Assembly: GCA_027314515.1 (NCBI GenBank)
Contig: DAHVAR010000123.1
Span: 1 to 64,000 of the forward strand
Direction of reading: 5' to 3'
DNA: 64,000 bases
Source: Actinomycetota bacterium
GTDB lineage: Bacteria; Actinomycetota; Actinomycetes; Streptosporangiales; Streptosporangiaceae
The translations under genes were made by a program, and so were the position numbers. The number at the start of each line of letters is the position of its first letter. The first letter of the stretch is position 1. Under the pieces are notes generated by a model. The model did no database searches, was not told the origin of the DNA, and was given only the letters and a program-made list of their open reading frames with translations. Below, one piece after another: positions 41,408 through 50,245 of the stretch.

Positions 41408-44400
41408 CTAGCCAGGCTCGGCGGGCAGGACGTGCACTTCCGCATGGCGGACCAGCCTGGCCAGCTCCCGGAGCACCGGGTACCGCCCGGCCGCCTGCGC
41501 CCTGCCCAGGACCAGCTCCGTTACCTGGCGCTGCGCTGCGTAGTGCGCCAGCGCGAGGGCCGGGGACGGCCCGGTCAGCGTGACGAACTCACCGCCCAGT
41601 TGCGCGGTCATGGCCGCGTAGCCGGCCAGCAGGCTGTCGTCCCCCGCGCCGGCGGGCCGGACCGTGGCGACCCGGAAATTCCCGTCAACCTGCGCGGCCA
41701 GTGCCGCCGAGCGCCGGATCAGCGACTCCATGCCGGGCCACGGCGCGGCGCACGCCAGGATCGACGGCTGCCAGTCCGAGCCCGCCGGCCCGCCCGCCGC
41801 AGCACCGAGCGCCCCCGGCGGGAGCGTCTCAGCCGCTCCCGCCTCGCCGGCGTAGGCAGCCAGCCGCCGCTCGCCGTGCTCGGCGACGATCCGGAACGCC
41901 CGCTCTCGCTCAGCTCGCAGCGTATCGGGCGCGAAGGTGCCCTCCAGCCCGAGCGCGACCTGCTCCGGCGGCACGATCAGGCCGCGCTTCACACGGTCGA
42001 TCAGGATCGACGGCGGAACGTCGACGAGCTCGATCTCGTCGGCCAGCGCGAGCAGCGCCGTCTCGTCGAGGAACACGGCGGACGCGCGATCCGGCGCGCC
42101 GCCGAGCTTGCCCAGCTGGACCGTGCCCACCACCGTGATGCCCGCTTCGGCCAGCCGCCTGGCGGCGACGAACCGGCGCTCCGCCGACGCCGTCCCGGCC
42201 GTCAGGTCGTCGACGCACGCCACCTCGGGCCGCCGCGCGAGCACCGCGGCGGTGTCCAGGGTGGCGCCGTCGCCGATCAGCTCCAGGTGCTCGAGTTCGG
42301 CGGTCACGTCCTCGCGATCCCGCGCGTCCACCGCGCCGACCACCACGTCGCTGCCACGCGACCTGCGCCGGCTGGCCTCTTCGAGCATCGCGGTCGTTGT
42401 CCCGCAGCCCGGCGCGTAGCCGAGATAGACCCTGATCGCGCCGCGGTGGCGTGCCTGCGCTCCGCCGCCACCAGGCTCGGCCGCCGGAGCTGACCCGGCC
42501 GCGGCCTCGATGTGCAGGTGCACGCGGGGCAGTTGCCCGGCCAGGCGCTCGAGCAGGGTGCCGCGCAGCCGCTCCATCAGCCCGGCGGGCGGGGCGGCGA
42601 GCACCAGGTGCCGGGCGTTCAGTTCCTGCACGGCAGAGATGATCGCGGTGCCGGGGTCCCGGCTCTCCCTGATCAGCACCGATGCGCCGGACGCCGTCGC
42701 GGCCGCCTCCACCCGCCCGGCGAGGGCCTCGCCGCCTGCCTGGCCCAGTAGCCGCTGGCCCAGTAGCTGCTGGCCAGGTCGCTGCTGACTCAGGGCCAGC
42801 ACGCAGCAGCGCGCGCCGCGCCTGCGAGCCAGCCGGACGCCCCGCTGGACAAGCGCTTCGACCTGGTCGGGCCGCCAGGCCACGACCAGTACGTCCTGCG
42901 GGCTGTGCTGGCGGGGCGCGCCGGGCGCGGAGACGCTGCTGGCGACCAGCCGCAGCCCGATCTCGCGCAGGGCGGCGAGCCTGGCCGGCTGGAACTCGGT
43001 CGCGAGCGCCGGCCCGACCTGATCCGGCGGGTAGATGTTGCCGTGCACGAGCCGCTTACGGAGCGCCTCGGGCGATGAGTCGACGAACTGCAGCGCGTCG
43101 ATGCCAGCGAGCACCTCGTCGGTGATCCGGCCCGGGGCCGGCCGGCCGGTGACGGCTGCGACGTCCTTCGCCACCCGCCCGACATCGGCCACGTCCGTCG
43201 TGCTGACCACGTGTATCCCGGCACTGCGCAGCGCTTCGATCGGCACGCAGTGCCGGCCGAGGTCGTCGATCAGCGCGACGGCGGGCTTACGGGCGAGCAC
43301 GGCCGCCAGGTCAAGCTGCCCGTCGGCAAGCGGCACGGTCTCCAGTCCGCCGAGCGCCTCGACCGTGTGCGGGCGGCCGCGGGTGTCGGCGAAGCCGATG
43401 ACAACGTCCTCGCCCTGGTCGCGCAGCGCGCGGCCTTCCTTGAGCATGGTGTACGTCGTGCCTGACCCCTGGGCGGCGCCCAGGTAGGCGGTCAGCGATC
43501 CCTTGCTGGCCGGACCGGGTGCCTCGGCGATCGTCGCGCCGATGCCCTGCTCCTCCCGCATGATCAGGCCACGGGCGGCGTCGTAGTCGTAAAGCTCGGC
43601 GTAGCGGCCCCAGTTCACCGCGACGTCGAGTTGCCGTGCCGCCTCCTCCTCGCCGAAGCTGGTGCGCAGGATGTCGGTGAAGAAACCGGCCGGCAGCGCG
43701 TCGTCCATGCTGCCGCGCAGGCTGCGGTAGATGGTCCGGACCAGTGGCGCATTCTCAAGCGACGCCCTCGCGAAGATCTCCTTGGAGTCCTGGATGCTCG
43801 CGCCGGCGAATACCCGCCCGTTCCCGGTGAGCTCGAGCCGGTCGTCGCGCAGCGCGGCGAAGCTCAGCAGGACGAGGGCGTCCACCAGCGGCAGCAGGTC
43901 GTCCACCTCGAGGCCGAGGCTGTCGGCGAGGTCCGCGAGGTCCGCCGCGCCGCCGTGCCGGGCGAGGAGGATCTCGGCCAGGCCGGACAGCCCGTCAACC
44001 GTCGCCTGCGGGAGCGGGGTGTCGCTGACCGTGCCAGCCGGCTTGGCCGCCCGCCGCTCGTCTGGCGCCGGCCGCCTGGTCATCATCCGGTAGATCTGGT
44101 CAACGAGCTCATCGAAGTCAGGCGTCCGCCGGCGGCGCGGCCGCGGCAGCGGGTTGGGCATGTCGGACATGATGCGACCGGGGTTGGTGCCGAGCACCAG
44201 GATCCGGTCAGCGAGGAGCACCGCCTCTTCGATGTTGTGCGTGACCATGACGATGGTCTTCGTCGGGAACCTGTGCCCTTCCCACAGCTCCAGCAGCTCA
44301 CCGCGAAGGTTCTCCGAGGTCAGCACGTCGAGCGCGCTGAACGGCTCGTCCATCAGCAGCGCCGCCGGCTCGACCACCAGCGCCCGCGCGAAGCCCACGC

Positions 44401-44878
44401 GCTGCCGCATGCCACCGGACAGCTCCTTGGGATAGGCCGACTCGTAGCCGTCGAGGCCGACGATGTCGATCGCGCGCAGCGCCCGCTCGGCCCGCTGGCC
44501 GGCCGCCACGCCGCGGGCCTCCAGGCCGAGTTCGACATTCTGCTGCACGGTCAGCCACGGCATCAGCGCGAAGGTCTGGAAGACCATCGCGGTTTCCCGG
44601 TTCGTGCCGGTGAGCCGCCGGCCGCGGAACCGCACCTCGCCCTCGGTGGGCGCGATCAGCCCCGCGATGCAGCGCAGCAGGGTGGACTTGCCGCTGCCGC
44701 TGCGGCCGAGAAGGGCGACGAACTCGCCCTCGGTCACCTCGAGGTTGATGTCGTCCAGTACCGGCAGCGGCCGGCCGCCCGGTCCGGCGAACGACTTGCT
44801 CAGCGACCGCACGCTGATCAGCGGCGTGGCCCGTGCCGGTTCCGCGAGGACCGTCCGGGAGGAAGCCGGCCCGGTCAT
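41408..44878 (-). CDS. ABC ATPase fused to two KdpD-N/USP-like modules
   Basis: 1156-residue cytoplasmic ATPase. Residues 20-250 are an ABC domain of the NitT/TauT type with intact Walker A (G58-RSGSGKS-T66), signature LSGGM (153-157) and Walker B LLMDEP (174-179). About 290-435 matches the AAA-associated C-terminal domain. Two modules resembling the KdpD sensor N-terminus plus a universal-stress domain follow: 461-645 with USP 661-795, and 815-1010 with USP 1036-1153. The KdpD-like P-loops read GAAQGSGTT (467-475) and GYAPGCGTT (820-828), so the catalytic Lys is Thr in both. The ATG overlaps the permease stop. No kinase domain follows. KdpD USP domains bind cyclic di-AMP, so a sensory role is inferred. 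Confidence 0.9.
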   Translation of the reverse strand: MTGPASSRTVLAEPARATPLISVRSLSKSFAGPGGRPLPVLDDINLEVTEGEFVALLGRSGSGKSTLLRCIAGLIAPTEGEVRFRGRRLTGTNRETAMVFQTFALMPWLTVQQNVELGLEARGVAAGQRAERALRAIDIVGLDGYESAYPKELSGGMRQRVGFARALVVEPAALLMDEPFSALDVLTSENLRGELLELWEGHRFPTKTIVMVTHNIEEAVLLADRILVLGTNPGRIMSDMPNPLPRPRRRRTPDFDELVDQIYRMMTRRPAPDERRAAKPAGTVSDTPLPQATVDGLSGLAEILLARHGGAADLADLADSLGLEVDDLLPLVDALVLLSFAALRDDRLELTGNGRVFAGASIQDSKEIFARASLENAPLVRTIYRSLRGSMDDALPAGFFTDILRTSFGEEEAARQLDVAVNWGRYAELYDYDAARGLIMREEQGIGATIAEAPGPASKGSLTAYLGAAQGSGTTYTMLKEGRALRDQGEDVVIGFADTRGRPHTVEALGGLETVPLADGQLDLAAVLARKPAVALIDDLGRHCVPIEALRSAGIHVVSTTDVADVGRVAKDVAAVTGRPAPGRITDEVLAGIDALQFVDSSPEALRKRLVHGNIYPPDQVGPALATEFQPARLAALREIGLRLVASSVSAPGAPRQHSPQDVLVVAWRPDQVEALVQRGVRLARRRGARCCVLALSQQRPGQQLLGQRLLGQAGGEALAGRVEAAATASGASVLIRESRDPGTAIISAVQELNARHLVLAAPPAGLMERLRGTLLERLAGQLPRVHLHIEAAAGSAPAAEPGGGGAQARHRGAIRVYLGYAPGCGTTTAMLEEASRRRSRGSDVVVGAVDARDREDVTAELEHLELIGDGATLDTAAVLARRPEVACVDDLTAGTASAERRFVAARRLAEAGITVVGTVQLGKLGGAPDRASAVFLDETALLALADEIELVDVPPSILIDRVKRGLIVPPEQVALGLEGTFAPDTLRAERERAFRIVAEHGERRLAAYAGEAGAAETLPPGALGAAAGGPAGSDWQPSILACAAPWPGMESLIRRSAALAAQVDGNFRVATVRPAGAGDDSLLAGYAAMTAQLGGEFVTLTGPSPALALAHYAAQRQVTELVLGRAQAAGRYPVLRELARLVRHAEVHVLPAEPG
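42740..42784. repeat. 15-base tandem repeat in the first USP-like domain
   Basis: Three 15-base units (42740-42754, 42755-42769 and a diverged 42770-42784) encoding a repeated LLGQ-type stretch within the first USP-like domain of the ABC fusion protein. Confidence 0.8.
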
Positions 44879-46617
44879 GCCAGCGCGAATTTCGTCTCGG
44901 CCAGCATGTACATCCTGCGCCAGAGCAGCGCGTTCAGGCCGGTGACGTAGATGGCCATCACCAGCAGCCCGGCGAACAGCTCGGGCAGGTGACCGGTGTT
45001 CAGCGCGATGAAGCTGCCCAGCCCCCTGGCGACGAGCTGCTGATGGTTGTAGCTGACGATCTCGGCCACGATCGTGGCGTTCCATGCGCCGCCGGCCGCG
45101 GTGATGGCGCCGGTCACGTAGGCCGGGAAGATGGCGGGCAGCACCAGCCGCCGCCATCGGTGCCGTCCGCGCACGCCCAGGTTGTCCATCGCTTCTTTCA
45201 GGTCAGAGGGGACCGCGCTCGCCCCGGCGATCACATTGAACAGGACGTACCACTGCGTGCCCAGGGCCATCAGCACGATCGAACCGAAGTTCAGGCTGAT
45301 GCCGAGGTCCAGGAAGATAACGATGGCGAACGGGAAGATGAAATTCGCCGGGAAGCTGGCAAGTACCTGCACGATCGGCTGCATGAACTGGGCGACCCGC
45401 GGGTTGAAGCCGATCCATACCCCGACCGGAACCCAGATCAGCGACGACACCGTCACGACGATTACCACGCGCAGGAAGGTCAGGAAGCCGTCGGCGAAGG
45501 CGGTCCCGAATACTGCCAGGCCGCTGCTGCCGGTCGCGATGTAGGCCAGCATGCTGTACAGGCCGTAACCGAGGGCCACGCTGACCGCGACCGTGAATGC
45601 CACGTCGGCCGCCCGGCGGCGGGACGCGCTGCCGGCCAGGCTCTGGTCCTCGATGCCGGTGGCCCTGGCCATGAGAGCGTTGACCGGCTCGGCCAGCGTT
45701 CGCCGGCCGCGTCCGAGGACGGCCGGCCAGCTGGACCGGCGCAGCGCGTCGAGCACAAGCGACGTGGCCCGCGGGCCGGCCTGCGACTGCTCGACCCGGA
45801 ATTTCTCCACGTAAGCGACCAGCGGCCGCCAGAAGAAGAAGTTGACCACCAGGATTATGACGATCATGGTGAGGATGCCCCACACCACGGCGTCGAGCCT
45901 GCCCTCCCGCTCCGCGACTCCGACGTAGGAGCCAACCCCGGGCAGCGTGTATCTCCGGTCGCCCACCGTGATCAGCTCGGACGCGGTCAGGAAGAACCAG
46001 CTGCCGCCGAAGCTCATCATCCCGTTCCAGACCAGGCCGATCGCGCCGCCGGGCACGTCCACCGTCCAGAACCGCTTCCACCGGGAGAGCCCCATCAGCT
46101 TGCTGGCCTCGTCGAATTCGCCCGGCTGGCTGATCAGCGAATGGTAGAAGGAAAACGTAATGTTCCACGCTTGCGAGGTGAATACAGCAAATATCGCCGC
46201 GCACTCCAGCCCGATCTCGGATCCTGGGAAGAGCGCGACGAAGAAGGTGACTGTCACCGCCAGGAAGCCCAGCACCGGGACGGACTGCAGGATGTCCAGC
46301 GCCGGGATCAGCACGCGCCGCCAGCGCCTGCTGCGCGCCGCCAGGTACGCGTAGCCCAGGCTGAAGGCGTAGGCGAAGACCAACGCGATGAACATGCGCA
46401 GCAGGCTGCGAGCCGCGTAATAGGGCAGGTTCGCCGGCGCGAGGCTGATGGTCGCAGCATGCCGAACCGGGGCCCTTGCCCCGGCGCCGACCCGTACCGC
46501 CGCGTAAATCAGCAGCAGCACGCCGATGCCGATGGTTAGGTCGAGCGGCCGGAATCTCAGCCTGTCGAGCGTCTCCCGGCTCGGGAAGGTAGGGGTCACC
46601 GCCACGAGACCAATCAT
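44875..46617 (-). CDS. ABC transporter permease, two fused BPD domains
   Basis: 580-residue membrane protein with about 12 helices, made of two binding-protein-dependent permease domains in one chain. EAA loops are visible in both halves: EASKLMGLSRWKRFWTVDVP and EAMDNLGVRGRHRWRRLVLP. Similar to fused NitT/TauT-like permeases. The ATG at 46617 (MIGLVAVTPTFP) is chosen since longer readings are Arg-rich and approach the ACP gene. Its stop overlaps the ATPase start by four bases (ATGA). No substrate-binding protein is nearby, so the direction and substrate of transport are open. Confidence 0.9.
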   Translation of the reverse strand: MIGLVAVTPTFPSRETLDRLRFRPLDLTIGIGVLLLIYAAVRVGAGARAPVRHAATISLAPANLPYYAARSLLRMFIALVFAYAFSLGYAYLAARSRRWRRVLIPALDILQSVPVLGFLAVTVTFFVALFPGSEIGLECAAIFAVFTSQAWNITFSFYHSLISQPGEFDEASKLMGLSRWKRFWTVDVPGGAIGLVWNGMMSFGGSWFFLTASELITVGDRRYTLPGVGSYVGVAEREGRLDAVVWGILTMIVIILVVNFFFWRPLVAYVEKFRVEQSQAGPRATSLVLDALRRSSWPAVLGRGRRTLAEPVNALMARATGIEDQSLAGSASRRRAADVAFTVAVSVALGYGLYSMLAYIATGSSGLAVFGTAFADGFLTFLRVVIVVTVSSLIWVPVGVWIGFNPRVAQFMQPIVQVLASFPANFIFPFAIVIFLDLGISLNFGSIVLMALGTQWYVLFNVIAGASAVPSDLKEAMDNLGVRGRHRWRRLVLPAIFPAYVTGAITAAGGAWNATIVAEIVSYNHQQLVARGLGSFIALNTGHLPELFAGLLVMAIYVTGLNALLWRRMYMLAETKFALA

Positions 46618-46693: not shown

Positions 46694-46966
46694 CTATGAG
46701 GCGCCCTGGCACCGGGCCGCGATGAACGCCGCGAGCGTGCCAAGCGTTTCCAGCGCGTCCAGGTTGAGGTCCTCGGCAGCGACGTCCACCCCGTACCGGC
46801 GCTGCACCTGCCGGATCAGCAGCGTGCCGGCCAGTGAGTCGAGGCCGACGCCGGCCCCGAAGAGGCGCACCCCGTCCGGCGCGCCCAGCAACTCCGGACG
46901 CCCGGTCACCTGCGCGAGCATCCCGCGCAGCTCGTCAGCGACCGCGCTGACCTGCTCGGTGCTCAC
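46694..46966 (-). CDS. acyl carrier protein
   Basis: 90-residue stand-alone carrier protein. The phosphopantetheine attachment site is S44 in GVGLDSLAG, followed by the helix LLIRQVQRRYGVDV. Its GTG start overlaps the FkbH-like stop (GTGA), tying the two together. In known systems an FkbH enzyme loads a three-carbon glyceryl or lactyl unit onto such a discrete ACP. The permease gene begins 77 bases downstream. Confidence 0.9.
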   Translation of the reverse strand: MSTEQVSAVADELRGMLAQVTGRPELLGAPDGVRLFGAGVGLDSLAGTLLIRQVQRRYGVDVAAEDLNLDALETLGTLAAFIAARCQGAS

Positions 46967-48027
46967 TCGACGGTCACCCAGTCCGGCAGCCACGGCAACT
47001 CGCCGGTCAGCGACCTGGAGAAGACCGCGCGGCCATCCGCTGCCACGCTGGCCGGCTCGGCCCGCAGCCCGGCAGTGGCGAGCGCCAGCCGCATGGGCAC
47101 GTTGCGCTCGCTGACCAGGCACGGAATCCGCAGTTCGGCGGCCCCGTCCGCGACGGCTGACCGGCACAGCCAGGCCAGCAGCGCATCCAGCACCCCCCGG
47201 CCGAGCGCACGGCACGACATCATGATCAACGGCACGGTCACCGCCACGGACACGGCGGGAACGGGCGCTGCCAGCCCGCCGCTGGCACCGTTCCCGGTGG
47301 TAATCGCGGCGCCGACGAGGCCATCGTCGCCGAAGTCGTCCGCCAGCCGCACAGTGATCACGGTGTACTCAGGCGCGGCGAGCAGGCCGGCCAGATCGGC
47401 CTGCGTCAGCGGCCGGCCAGCGGAGTTGAGCTGATGGGTGCGGATCGATAGCTCATGCAGCCGGGGCAGGTCACCCGGCCCGGCCGGGCCGATGGTGATC
47501 CTGGTGCCGGCCTGCCGCAGGAAGTCGTCACGGCTCCTGCCGAACTGCGCCGCGGCAGCCTGGCGGTGGCGGCGCTCGGCGTACAGCTGGCTACGGCGGC
47601 GCGCCTCGGCCGTGATCACCGCCGGGCTGAACTGCGGCCAGTCCGGCGCTTCCGCGGCCTCGTCCGGGGTCAGCACCAGGACGTCAGGCAGCCGGGCGGC
47701 TACCTCGGCCCGCTCGAGCATGTCGTCGTCGACGAACGCGATCGCGTCCGGCGCCAGGCTCAGGCCGGCCGCGATCCGGGCGATCGCGTCGGCCTTGCTC
47801 TCCCAGCCGCACTCCACCGCGGCGAAGTCCGCGCCGGTCTGCTGCCGCACGTAGGCAGCGGCGGCCGGCGGGTTGCGGCTGGCCAGGGCGTTCAGGATGC
47901 CGCGCGCGGCGAGCTGGTGCAGCACGCCGGTCAGCTGCCGGTCGGCGGCCGGCGGCTCAGCGCCGGATTCCAGGTAGACGCCGGCCAGCAGGGTGTTGTC
48001 GATATCCCAGACCACGCACTTGATCAC
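46963..48027 (-). CDS. FkbH-like HAD-IIIC glyceryl transferase/phosphatase
   Basis: 354-residue protein. The N-terminal HAD domain has the nucleophile motif VVWDIDNTLLAG (D8, D10). LASRNPP and AFVDDDMLERAEV give the other HAD motifs. The C-terminal half is GNAT-like with SIRTHQLNSAGRPLT, the signature that marks FkbH proteins. FkbH enzymes dephosphorylate 1,3-bisphosphoglycerate and place the glyceryl unit on an ACP; the adjacent ACP fits. GTG start overlaps the preceding GNAT stop. No FkbG/FkbI oxidoreductases or polyketide synthase are present, so the ACP-bound unit must have another fate. Confidence 0.9.
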   Translation of the reverse strand: MIKCVVWDIDNTLLAGVYLESGAEPPAADRQLTGVLHQLAARGILNALASRNPPAAAAYVRQQTGADFAAVECGWESKADAIARIAAGLSLAPDAIAFVDDDMLERAEVAARLPDVLVLTPDEAAEAPDWPQFSPAVITAEARRRSQLYAERRHRQAAAAQFGRSRDDFLRQAGTRITIGPAGPGDLPRLHELSIRTHQLNSAGRPLTQADLAGLLAAPEYTVITVRLADDFGDDGLVGAAITTGNGASGGLAAPVPAVSVAVTVPLIMMSCRALGRGVLDALLAWLCRSAVADGAAELRIPCLVSERNVPMRLALATAGLRAEPASVAADGRAVFSRSLTGELPWLPDWVTVE

Positions 48028-48551
48028 GAACCGGCCCTGCGTTCCATGGTCAGGTGCGTGGCGGTGAAGCCGAACTTCCGGTACAGCGCGCGCATGCCGA
48101 GATTGCCCGCGTGGACCTTGCCGGTGAGCTGCCCCATCTGGTGCTCGTCAGCCGCCGCGAGGACGGCCCCCATCAACAGCTCCGCGATCCGGCTGCGGTC
48201 CGGCACGTCCGACACCGCAAGCGACCGGAAGTTGCCGTACCGCTCACCGGTCAGCGAGTTGGTGCGCGCGGACAGCCAGGCCCAGCCGAGCGGGCTGCCC
48301 GGCTGCTGCCTCGCTGCGGCGACCAGGGTGATCTCGCCGGGCTTGCCGAGGGCGCCGGCGATGCGCTTGCGGTGCAGCGCGGGATCGGTGATGGCCTCCG
48401 CCGCGAACGAGACCACGGCGATCTCGATCTCGTACCTGACCAGGGCTTCGATGTCGTCCTGTCTGGCCGGCCGCACCAGGTAGTCCGGGTCGGACGTTAT
48501 CGCGGCACCGCCGTCCCTGGCCGCGCCGGAATTCATCACGGCGGGGCTCAT
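48024..48551 (-). CDS. GNAT acetyltransferase in polyamine/FkbH cluster
   Basis: 175-residue GNAT protein. Conserved parts: YLVRPARQDDIEALVRYEIE at the start, FRSLAVSDVPDRSRIAELL for acetyl-CoA contact, and GKVHAGNLGMRALYRKFGF near the end. The ATG at 48551 overlaps the bpsA stop as ATGA; its own stop overlaps the FkbH-like start. In this setting it could acylate a polyamine, or move a group from the adjacent carrier protein to an amine. That is inference from position. Confidence 0.83.
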   Translation of the reverse strand: MSPAVMNSGAARDGGAAITSDPDYLVRPARQDDIEALVRYEIEIAVVSFAAEAITDPALHRKRIAGALGKPGEITLVAAARQQPGSPLGWAWLSARTNSLTGERYGNFRSLAVSDVPDRSRIAELLMGAVLAAADEHQMGQLTGKVHAGNLGMRALYRKFGFTATHLTMERRAGS

Positions 48552-49738
48552 CGCGGCACCGGCGGGCTCGCTGGCCGCCGCGTCAGCGGCATCGGCCGGA
48601 AGACCTGGCCGCCGCACTCCGGGCAGCCGGCTGCCTGCAGCACGGCGATCTGCGGCCAGCGGCCGCCCGGCCCGACCTGCTGCACGGCCTTGCAGCGCGC
48701 GCAGCGGTACGGCCGGCTGGCCACTGACCTGTTGTCAGCGGTGTACAGCGGCCCGTCGTACTCGCCGGCGATGAGCGGGCTGGCTCCGGCCGCTGTCCGC
48801 AGGTGATACAGGTTGCTCGTGCCGGCCAGCACTCCGGCACCCAGGTAGGAGTTGAAGCCGGCCGTCGCCGACCGCAGGACCAGGCCCATCTCGGTCATGG
48901 CACGCTGCACCGCGAGCGTCTCCTCGGGCCGCCGGGCACCGAAGGAGAGGAACACGTGCCGGCCAGGCAGCGGGGCCAGCCCGGCCACCGCCCGGCTGAG
49001 GAACAGCTCCGCCCCGGCGACCGTGTACGGCGGGTCGGTCATCGCCACGTCGAACGAGCCGGCCAGCGACGCAGGCAGCGGCTTGCGCAGATCGGCCTGG
49101 ACCAGCTCGACGGGCAGCCCGGTGCTCCCGGTCTGCTCGCCGATCCAGTCCAGCACGTCCGCGTCGGCGTCCACAACGGTCAGCCGGCGGATCAGCCCCG
49201 GATTGCCGGCCCAGTGGGCGAAATGCGCCAGCGCGACCGAGATCAGGTCGTCGTCGCCGAGCAGCAGGATTCGCTGTCCGGCCAGCGCGTGCGCCGCCTG
49301 CAGCCGAAGGACCCGGCCGAGCTTGGTGGCCACCGTGCAGTGCGTCTGGTCCAGCTCGGTCTTGGCACCGGGCGCCCCGTCGGCGGCCTGCTGCAGCGTC
49401 ATGGCGAGCCCGGCGAGCTCCGGCGGGACGACCACGCCCCGCCCGCCGCACTCCGGGCAGGTCACCGGCAGGCCGGCCGGGCCGGCCGCGGCTGCCGCCG
49501 CCGACCGGCCGGCCGCGGTCATGCGGACCGGCCGCTGGGTATCCAGCACGCCGTGCCGGCGCAGCTCGTTGCATGCCGCGGCGACAATGGGCACCGGGAG
49601 CTCGGCCAGCCGGGCAATCTCGCGCACTGCCGCCGGCTCGGCGTCGAGCACGGCCGCCAGGATGTCGCGGATACCTGATTCGCCCTCAGCCAGGCCGACC
49701 GCTGCCGCGACCTCGGCCACGACCTTGTCCATATCCAT
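48548..49738 (-). CDS. bpsA: branched-chain polyamine synthase BpsA
   Basis: Aminopropyltransferase of the BpsA family, which adds aminopropyl groups to the central nitrogen of spermidine to give N4-bis(aminopropyl)spermidine. 396 residues. An N-terminal winged-helix region (about 35-80) is followed by CPECGG (C94, C97), then a methyltransferase-like fold with GDDDL (161-165) and DPPY (235-238), the acidic loops that bind the amine. A C-terminal zinc ribbon has C346/C349 and C372/C375. The ATG at 49738 faces speD across a 99-base divergent region. The enzyme uses decarboxylated SAM, which the neighbour would supply. Confidence 0.88.
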   Translation of the reverse strand: MDMDKVVAEVAAAVGLAEGESGIRDILAAVLDAEPAAVREIARLAELPVPIVAAACNELRRHGVLDTQRPVRMTAAGRSAAAAAAGPAGLPVTCPECGGRGVVVPPELAGLAMTLQQAADGAPGAKTELDQTHCTVATKLGRVLRLQAAHALAGQRILLLGDDDLISVALAHFAHWAGNPGLIRRLTVVDADADVLDWIGEQTGSTGLPVELVQADLRKPLPASLAGSFDVAMTDPPYTVAGAELFLSRAVAGLAPLPGRHVFLSFGARRPEETLAVQRAMTEMGLVLRSATAGFNSYLGAGVLAGTSNLYHLRTAAGASPLIAGEYDGPLYTADNRSVASRPYRCARCKAVQQVGPGGRWPQIAVLQAAGCPECGGQVFRPMPLTRRPASPPVPR

Positions 49739-49837
49739 CTGTTGCGTGTTCCCACTGCAGGATTTACTAGGCCGACGATAGTCGCCGAGCCTGTCCGTCC
49801 GGGCAGGCCAGCGGGCCGTACGGTATCCTCGCACATC
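49739..49837. promoter_or_regulatory. divergent promoter region between bpsA and speD
   Basis: 99 bases that must drive both genes. On the plus strand a -10-like TATCCT (49824-49829) lies eight bases before the speD ATG and there is no ribosome site, suggesting a leaderless speD message. On the minus strand a TAGTAAAT stretch precedes bpsA. Confidence 0.45.
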
Positions 49838-50245
49838 ATGCCGGGCATGGAAGCGGCCAGCAGCTACACCAGCCTGCGGCGCCAGGAAGCTGCATCGGCC
49901 AAGCGCCTGTACGCCATCGATGCGGTCTGCACCCCCGCTTCTCCCGTCACCGACGTCGGTGCGCTGAGCCGGCTTGCCGTCGCCGCCGTCCAGTCCGGCG
50001 GCGGGCACGTACTGGATACCAGCGATGTGGTCTTCCCGAACGGCGCCATCACCCTGGTCCTCATCCTGGCCGAATCTCACCTGAGCATCCACACCTGGCC
50101 GGAGGAAGGCCTCATCGCAATCGACTTGTTCAGCTGCGGGGCGATCGACGGCCAGCGGGTGCTGGACGAGCTGACCAGAGCGCTGCGGCTGGAAAAGGTC
50201 CGCGTCACCGAGGTCGAGCGGGGCCTGCCCGGCAGCCAGCCCTGA
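49838..50245 (+). CDS. speD: S-adenosylmethionine decarboxylase proenzyme
   Basis: Pyruvoyl-dependent enzyme of 135 residues, class 1B size, that makes decarboxylated SAM, the aminopropyl donor. The self-cleavage site is E79-S80 in LAESHLSIHTWPE; the processing His H85 and catalytic Cys C100 (DLFSCG) keep the spacing known from the Thermotoga enzyme (S63, H68, C83). ATG 49838 is chosen; 49847 is also possible. Divergent to bpsA, completing a donor-plus-transferase pair. Confidence 0.94.
   Translation: MPGMEAASSYTSLRRQEAASAKRLYAIDAVCTPASPVTDVGALSRLAVAAVQSGGGHVLDTSDVVFPNGAITLVLILAESHLSIHTWPEEGLIAIDLFSCGAIDGQRVLDELTRALRLEKVRVTEVERGLPGSQP

Follow-up and report, generated by a model that had tools for sequence, protein, structure and literature searches.

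A conserved five-gene unit combining BpsA-family and FkbH–ACP genes, with an acylated polyamine as candidate product

What could an aminopropyltransferase of the BpsA family make in one operon with an FkbH-type enzyme, a GNAT-fold acyltransferase and a discrete acyl carrier protein (ACP)? This gene set is found in the window, a 64-kb stretch of DNA from an actinobacterial genome of the Streptosporangiaceae (5.86 Mb, 280 contigs, 97.9% complete). Translation and profile searches agree on all five genes at the positions given by an earlier note on this DNA:

49838–50245, plus strand: speD, S-adenosylmethionine decarboxylase, pyruvoyl type (Pfam AdoMet_dc, 3.8e-23; TIGR03330, 1.2e-22, 80.3 bits against a cut-off of 75.65; Ser/His processing site HLSIHTWPE in the translation)
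49739–49837, no strand: spacer separating the starts of the divergent genes speD and bpsA (99 bases)
48548–49738, minus strand: bpsA-family aminopropyltransferase (Pfam BpsA_C, 2.9e-31; GDDD and TDPPYT kept; C-terminal Cys4 ribbon)
48024–48551, minus strand: GNAT-fold acyltransferase (Acetyltransf_1, 6.5e-6, a generic match only; without the [QR]xxGx[GA] CoA loop)
46963–48027, minus strand: predicted FkbH-type bifunctional HAD-IIIC phosphatase/glyceryltransferase (TIGR01686, 3.3e-56, 190.8 bits against a curated cut-off of 146.65; HAD and GNAT-like domains; Cys272)
46694–46966, minus strand: discrete ACP (PP-binding, 1.4e-9, a generic match only; phosphopantetheine site GLDSL)

A conserved unit of five genes

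The bpsA–GNAT–fkbH–ACP operon (49738–46694, minus strand) is divergent from speD. Read directly from the bases, its stops and starts overlap by four nucleotides, as ATGA at bpsA/GNAT and as GTGA at both GNAT/fkbH and fkbH/ACP. The operon is chained by these overlaps, and the word 'fused' used for it in the earlier note is figurative, the genes being separate. A search of the 99-base intergenic region for a sigma-70 consensus found none. FkbH has a single match in the window genome.

These five genes form a real and conserved unit, which seems not to have been described before. The order bpsA–GNAT–fkbH–ACP recurs in about 16 Streptosporangiaceae-type genomes, in two actinobacterial genomes of 8–9 Mb from outside the window's family (G1558 and G1728), which retain the divergent speD, in 11 of 247 Paenibacillaceae and in one Clostridium metagenome-assembled genome (MAG; G348). 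The hosts are thus bacteria of soil and gut that are only distantly related. Because this order recurs in other families and in another phylum, the linkage is above chance. The earlier note had proposed distant linkage of bpsA, fkbH and ACP as support; such linkage is found, even beyond actinobacteria, and the bpsA–GNAT and FkbH–ACP pairs stay together in relatives, in another family and in another phylum.

Searches with three baits describe this distribution. A GTDB scan that used FkbH as bait returned bpsA, GNAT and fkbH in this order at seven Streptosporangiaceae-type loci, speD and ACP being present wherever the contig extends far enough, and also hit, unexpectedly, Paenibacillus apiarius, P. 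profundus and the Clostridium MAG. A close BpsA occurs in 16 of 347 genomes of the order, from at least six genera; the GNAT adjoins it in all 16, and fkbH is seen in 13, the remaining three loci ending before fkbH. The GNAT bait matched 11 of 247 Paenibacillaceae, 1 of 200 Clostridium-family and 3 of 336 Actinomycetota genomes. Its scores are bimodal, with an E-value of 1e-50 or better or else nothing at 1e-20, and every match lies within bpsA–GNAT–fkbH–ACP, with none outside the unit in the genomes searched and none in plasmids. The unit is sparsely distributed, given that only 1 of 46 evenly drawn genomes of the G1558/G1728 genus carries it, namely the centre genome of the sample.

Where does the unit end? 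Four lineages include speD, in three positions: divergent in actinobacteria (the Streptosporangiaceae relatives and G1558/G1728), downstream of ACP beyond a mutS2-like gene in one Paenibacillaceae genome (G1233), and between bpsA and the GNAT gene in the Clostridium MAG. The genes past ACP vary among relatives. Thus, the conserved unit ends at ACP and, with speD, comprises five genes. We consider it very probable that these five genes act in one pathway.

Two other genes lie close to standalone copies. The MutS2-like protein of G1233 (L123:6427–8286, minus strand; 619 aa) also scores 209 bits against the model of KamC, the lysine aminomutase reactivase ATPase. A putative methyltransferase of 273 aa, by our reading of the sequence, follows ACP after a gap in the Clostridium unit (L124:1298–2119, minus strand).

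Predicted amine and glyceryl-ACP supply

We propose, giving the idea about an even chance, that the unit joins an aminopropylated amine from SpeD and BpsA to a glyceryl-S-ACP from FkbH by means of the GNAT. SpeD would form decarboxylated SAM, from which BpsA would transfer one or more aminopropyl groups to a putrescine- or spermidine-like amine. FkbH would take a C3 acyl group from 1,3-bisphosphoglycerate, dephosphorylate it and load it on the discrete ACP. With this glyceryl-S-ACP as donor in place of an acyl-CoA, the GNAT would then acylate the product of BpsA at an amino group. All of these substrates, like the biological role of the metabolite, are inferred.

The predicted FkbH retains the invariant residues D8, D10 and T12 (DxDxT), K78, D100 and C272, and the two domains of its structure model match HAD phosphatases and GNATs. 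The combination of an FkbH-type protein with a discrete ACP resembles the tetronate glycerate-utilization operons (mad7/mad8 of tetromadurin; PMC7489565), for which glyceryl-S-ACP from 1,3-bisphosphoglycerate is likewise the expected intermediate. However, the tetronate systems also have a FabH-like protein, an acyltransferase/dehydratase pair and a PKS, whereas the unit instead contains SpeD, a BpsA-type enzyme and the GNAT; no FabH-like gene is found among the five unit genes, and no KS-AT match in the window. The methoxymalonyl- and hydroxymalonyl-ACP loci (FK520 type and zwittermicin type) also share FkbH and ACP. In the FkbH tree, the module members split into two clades, one of Firmicutes and one of actinobacteria, next to FkbHs of hydroxymalonyl type; the tree neither shows nor excludes that the module FkbHs share a single origin. 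In contrast to those loci, the unit lacks dehydrogenases, an O-methyltransferase and nearby use of an extender unit. FkbI-type, dehydrogenase-type and methylating genes are all absent from the five unit genes, and with no oxidizing or methylating partner, glyceryl-ACP would be the end point of the FkbH branch.

Which amine does BpsA act on? The window genome encodes one Orn/Lys/Arg decarboxylase-family member, three agmatinase-family genes and two Orn/DAP decarboxylase-family genes, so that a supply of putrescine is plausible. It has no convincing spermidine synthase, the best match scoring 37.7 bits as against about 240 bits in two Paenibacillus genomes. Elsewhere, G049 and the Clostridium MAG gave no match and G034 only a weak one, although such absences of SpeE are soft because some of the genomes are MAGs. 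BpsA is therefore the likely consumer of the decarboxylated SAM formed by SpeD, as it appears to be from the gene content of the window genome, and the amine that it extends may be other than spermidine.

Is the amine branched? The unit BpsA shares with the Thermococcus and Thermus enzymes (EC 2.5.1.128; PMC12979288) the BpsA_C fold family, the GDDD motif, which is invariant in the alignment, the Asp of DPP and the Tyr of FNxY. The position of Thermococcus Glu259 is not conserved in the unit BpsA; Thermococcus residues were placed on the alignment by counting residues, with the printed position of GDDD as the starting point. Furthermore, Tk-BpsA has a C-terminal acidic cluster that is reported as the aminopropyl carrier, a role inferred for Tt-BpsA (PMC12979288), whereas the unit BpsA was found to lack such a tail and ends in a Cys4 ribbon (CxxC...GCPxC). 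Because the acidic carrier tail is absent, the chemistry may differ, and we file the enzyme as BpsA-family rather than as a proven branched-polyamine synthase. With the carrier tail missing and no convincing spermidine synthase in the window genome, the branching of the amine that the earlier note assumed is presumptive. The Cys4 ribbon is not a module-specific trait, since it is also present in non-module BpsAs of Paenibacillaceae. Actinobacteria also have further BpsA_C proteins, which match with E about 1e-45, align over residues about 106–343 and carry GDHD in place of GDDD; these were set aside, with no GNAT or FkbH gene in the flanks read.

The GNAT and its acyl donor

The GNAT is the enzyme on which the proposed coupling depends. 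None of the 29 members examined from its subfamily keeps the CoA-pyrophosphate loop motif [QR]xxGx[GA] before helix 3. In the matching columns, solved relatives keep the motif, for example as RGKGYA (YycN) and RRKGIA (an archaeal enzyme), and it is also present, as QGSGAG, in a second GNAT encoded in the window. The loss of the motif in all 29 fits an acyl-ACP donor and strengthens the transfer from ACP to an amine that the earlier note had put forward; that glyceryl-ACP is this donor fits the sequences and is not proved by them, and CoA binding may persist even where the loop of a GNAT deviates. The choice of glyceryl among C3 acyl groups, the coupling step and an acyl-polyamine as the product are what we infer.

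GNAT-fold enzymes that use acyl-ACP exist, as illustrated by LuxI-type enzymes (PMC8188788) and by N-acyl amino acid synthases (PMC8762209). The unit GNAT resembles the LuxI-type AHL synthases and the FeeM-type N-acyl amino acid synthases in its fold, as well as in its expected ACP-borne donor and in the predicted formation of an amide on an amine. These enzymes transfer a fatty acyl group, whereas the unit GNAT is expected to transfer a small polar C3 acyl.

Could the GNAT instead be an ordinary polyamine N-acetyltransferase that acts on the BpsA product with acetyl-CoA? Glyceryl-ACP would then feed some other joining step, for example to another amine position or to an unlinked acceptor. The top structural neighbour of the GNAT model by Z is indeed the polyamine acetyltransferase DpA with 1,3-diaminopropane (Z 17.5), but many other acetyltransferases lie within 1 Z, so that this match is a hint only, and the solved-structure matches do not indicate the acceptor. 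An acetylated branched polyamine is also reported in T. kodakarensis (PMC12979288). Nonetheless, the missing loop motif, the confinement of the GNAT profile to loci with fkbH and ACP, and the lack of any other acyltransferase in the unit that could use the ACP make this explanation unlikely. An N-glyceroyl (2,3-dihydroxypropanoyl) polyamine, formed by the GNAT from glyceryl-ACP, is the most likely product, and we judge the case for it to be evenly balanced.

Megasynthase-linked copies and the history of bpsA

The earlier note saw no PKS in this DNA, and no KS, condensation (C) or adenylation (A) domain is detected in the 64-kb window. The statement does not extend to Paenibacillaceae, in which 10 of the 11 copies directly follow a PKS/NRPS megasynthase. 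In four lineages, the surroundings of the unit contain no PKS or NRPS, KS and C domains being absent from the 10–60 kb read around it in the window, Streptosporangiaceae, G1558/G1728, G1233 and G348. In the P. apiarius cluster, a hydroxymalonyl-ACP-type set of FkbH, ACP and dehydrogenase lies upstream, and the last protein has the order KS-AT-ACP-C-FkbH-ACP, a thioesterase being absent from the Pfam result.

At the end of such a cluster, the product of the unit would be used as a block for building or for capping. This arrangement raises another possibility, that the unit everywhere builds an ACP-bound block, adding an amine or aminopropyl group to ACP-tethered glycerate and handing it to a PKS/NRPS that is encoded elsewhere if not nearby. 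The ten megasynthase-linked copies and the P. apiarius protein without a Pfam thioesterase are consistent with such a hand-over. The KS- and C-free flanks in four lineages and the sharp boundaries of the unit argue against it, and we regard it as decidedly unlikely. The unit also gives a starting point for finding what is made by a PKS/NRPS cluster of Paenibacillaceae that appears to be uncharacterized.

The P. apiarius cluster (L084–L086 and L010; G347 C1 4498000–4557999) also encodes a protein that we read as beta-lactamase-like, and an embedded FkbH domain, in addition to the bpsA unit. The unit is followed by a 767-aa protein that matches no NCBIfam model and by an alkaline phosphatase.

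Has bpsA always belonged to the unit? Module members do not form one clade in the BpsA tree; the taxa in the tree exclude such a clade and require at least four label changes, and the BpsA of G1233 lies among non-module members of Paenibacillaceae. These changes suggest that bpsA has entered or left the unit repeatedly, either because the GNAT–fkbH–ACP set was joined repeatedly or because of repeated loss, and repeated joining would itself argue for a function. It is improbable that BpsA is a true branched-polyamine synthase of general physiology that merely shares a promoter with a separate GNAT/FkbH/ACP pathway: module and non-module BpsAs do mix in the tree and most Bacilli homologues stand without the other genes (BpsA occurs in 25 of 399 genomes, two of which carry the unit), but the gene order is identical in two phyla, in standalone and PKS-linked copies, the GNAT never occurs apart, and P. 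apiarius carries, outside the unit, a further BpsA of the non-module kind, which makes the module copy an extra one. GDDD-type BpsAs with a Cys4 tail are common in Bacilli (L053–L077, L087), mostly without the unit.

In addition to the joint pathway, we tentatively advance, at slightly less than even confidence, that the unit is a portable five-gene cassette for an undescribed class of ACP-dependent acyl-polyamine metabolites, standalone in actinobacteria, in one Paenibacillaceae genome (G1233) and in one Clostridium (G348) and absorbed into PKS/NRPS clusters of Paenibacillaceae, with the GNAT founding a family of ACP-using amine acyltransferases. A literature search for FkbH with polyamine and ACP, spermidine or aminopropyl, outside which most subscription journals lie, found no paper. 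If true, the unit would join polyamine synthesis from decarboxylated SAM to glyceryl-ACP chemistry, which are not reported together in the literature searched, and would suggest a new family of GNATs that use acyl-ACP. It also places BpsA-family enzymes well outside thermophiles, its hosts not being hyperthermophiles as far as known, contrary to a 2026 review that restricts bpsA to thermophiles (PMC12979288). The five genes are a ready target for expression and mass spectrometry.

An ABC transporter downstream of the unit was considered as a pathway member and rejected, since the nearest relative alone has it next to the unit; genes intervene in L003, L004 and L006, and L101 and L102 have other neighbours. 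In the window, a 580-aa two-part ABC permease (44875–46617, minus strand) adjoins an unusual large protein (41408–44893, minus strand) that combines, in a single frame, an ABC ATPase, AAA_assoc_C and two KdpD sensor-domain stretches, with a weak Usp match between the latter. A large ORF at the matching position is also present in L002, L003, L004 and L006.
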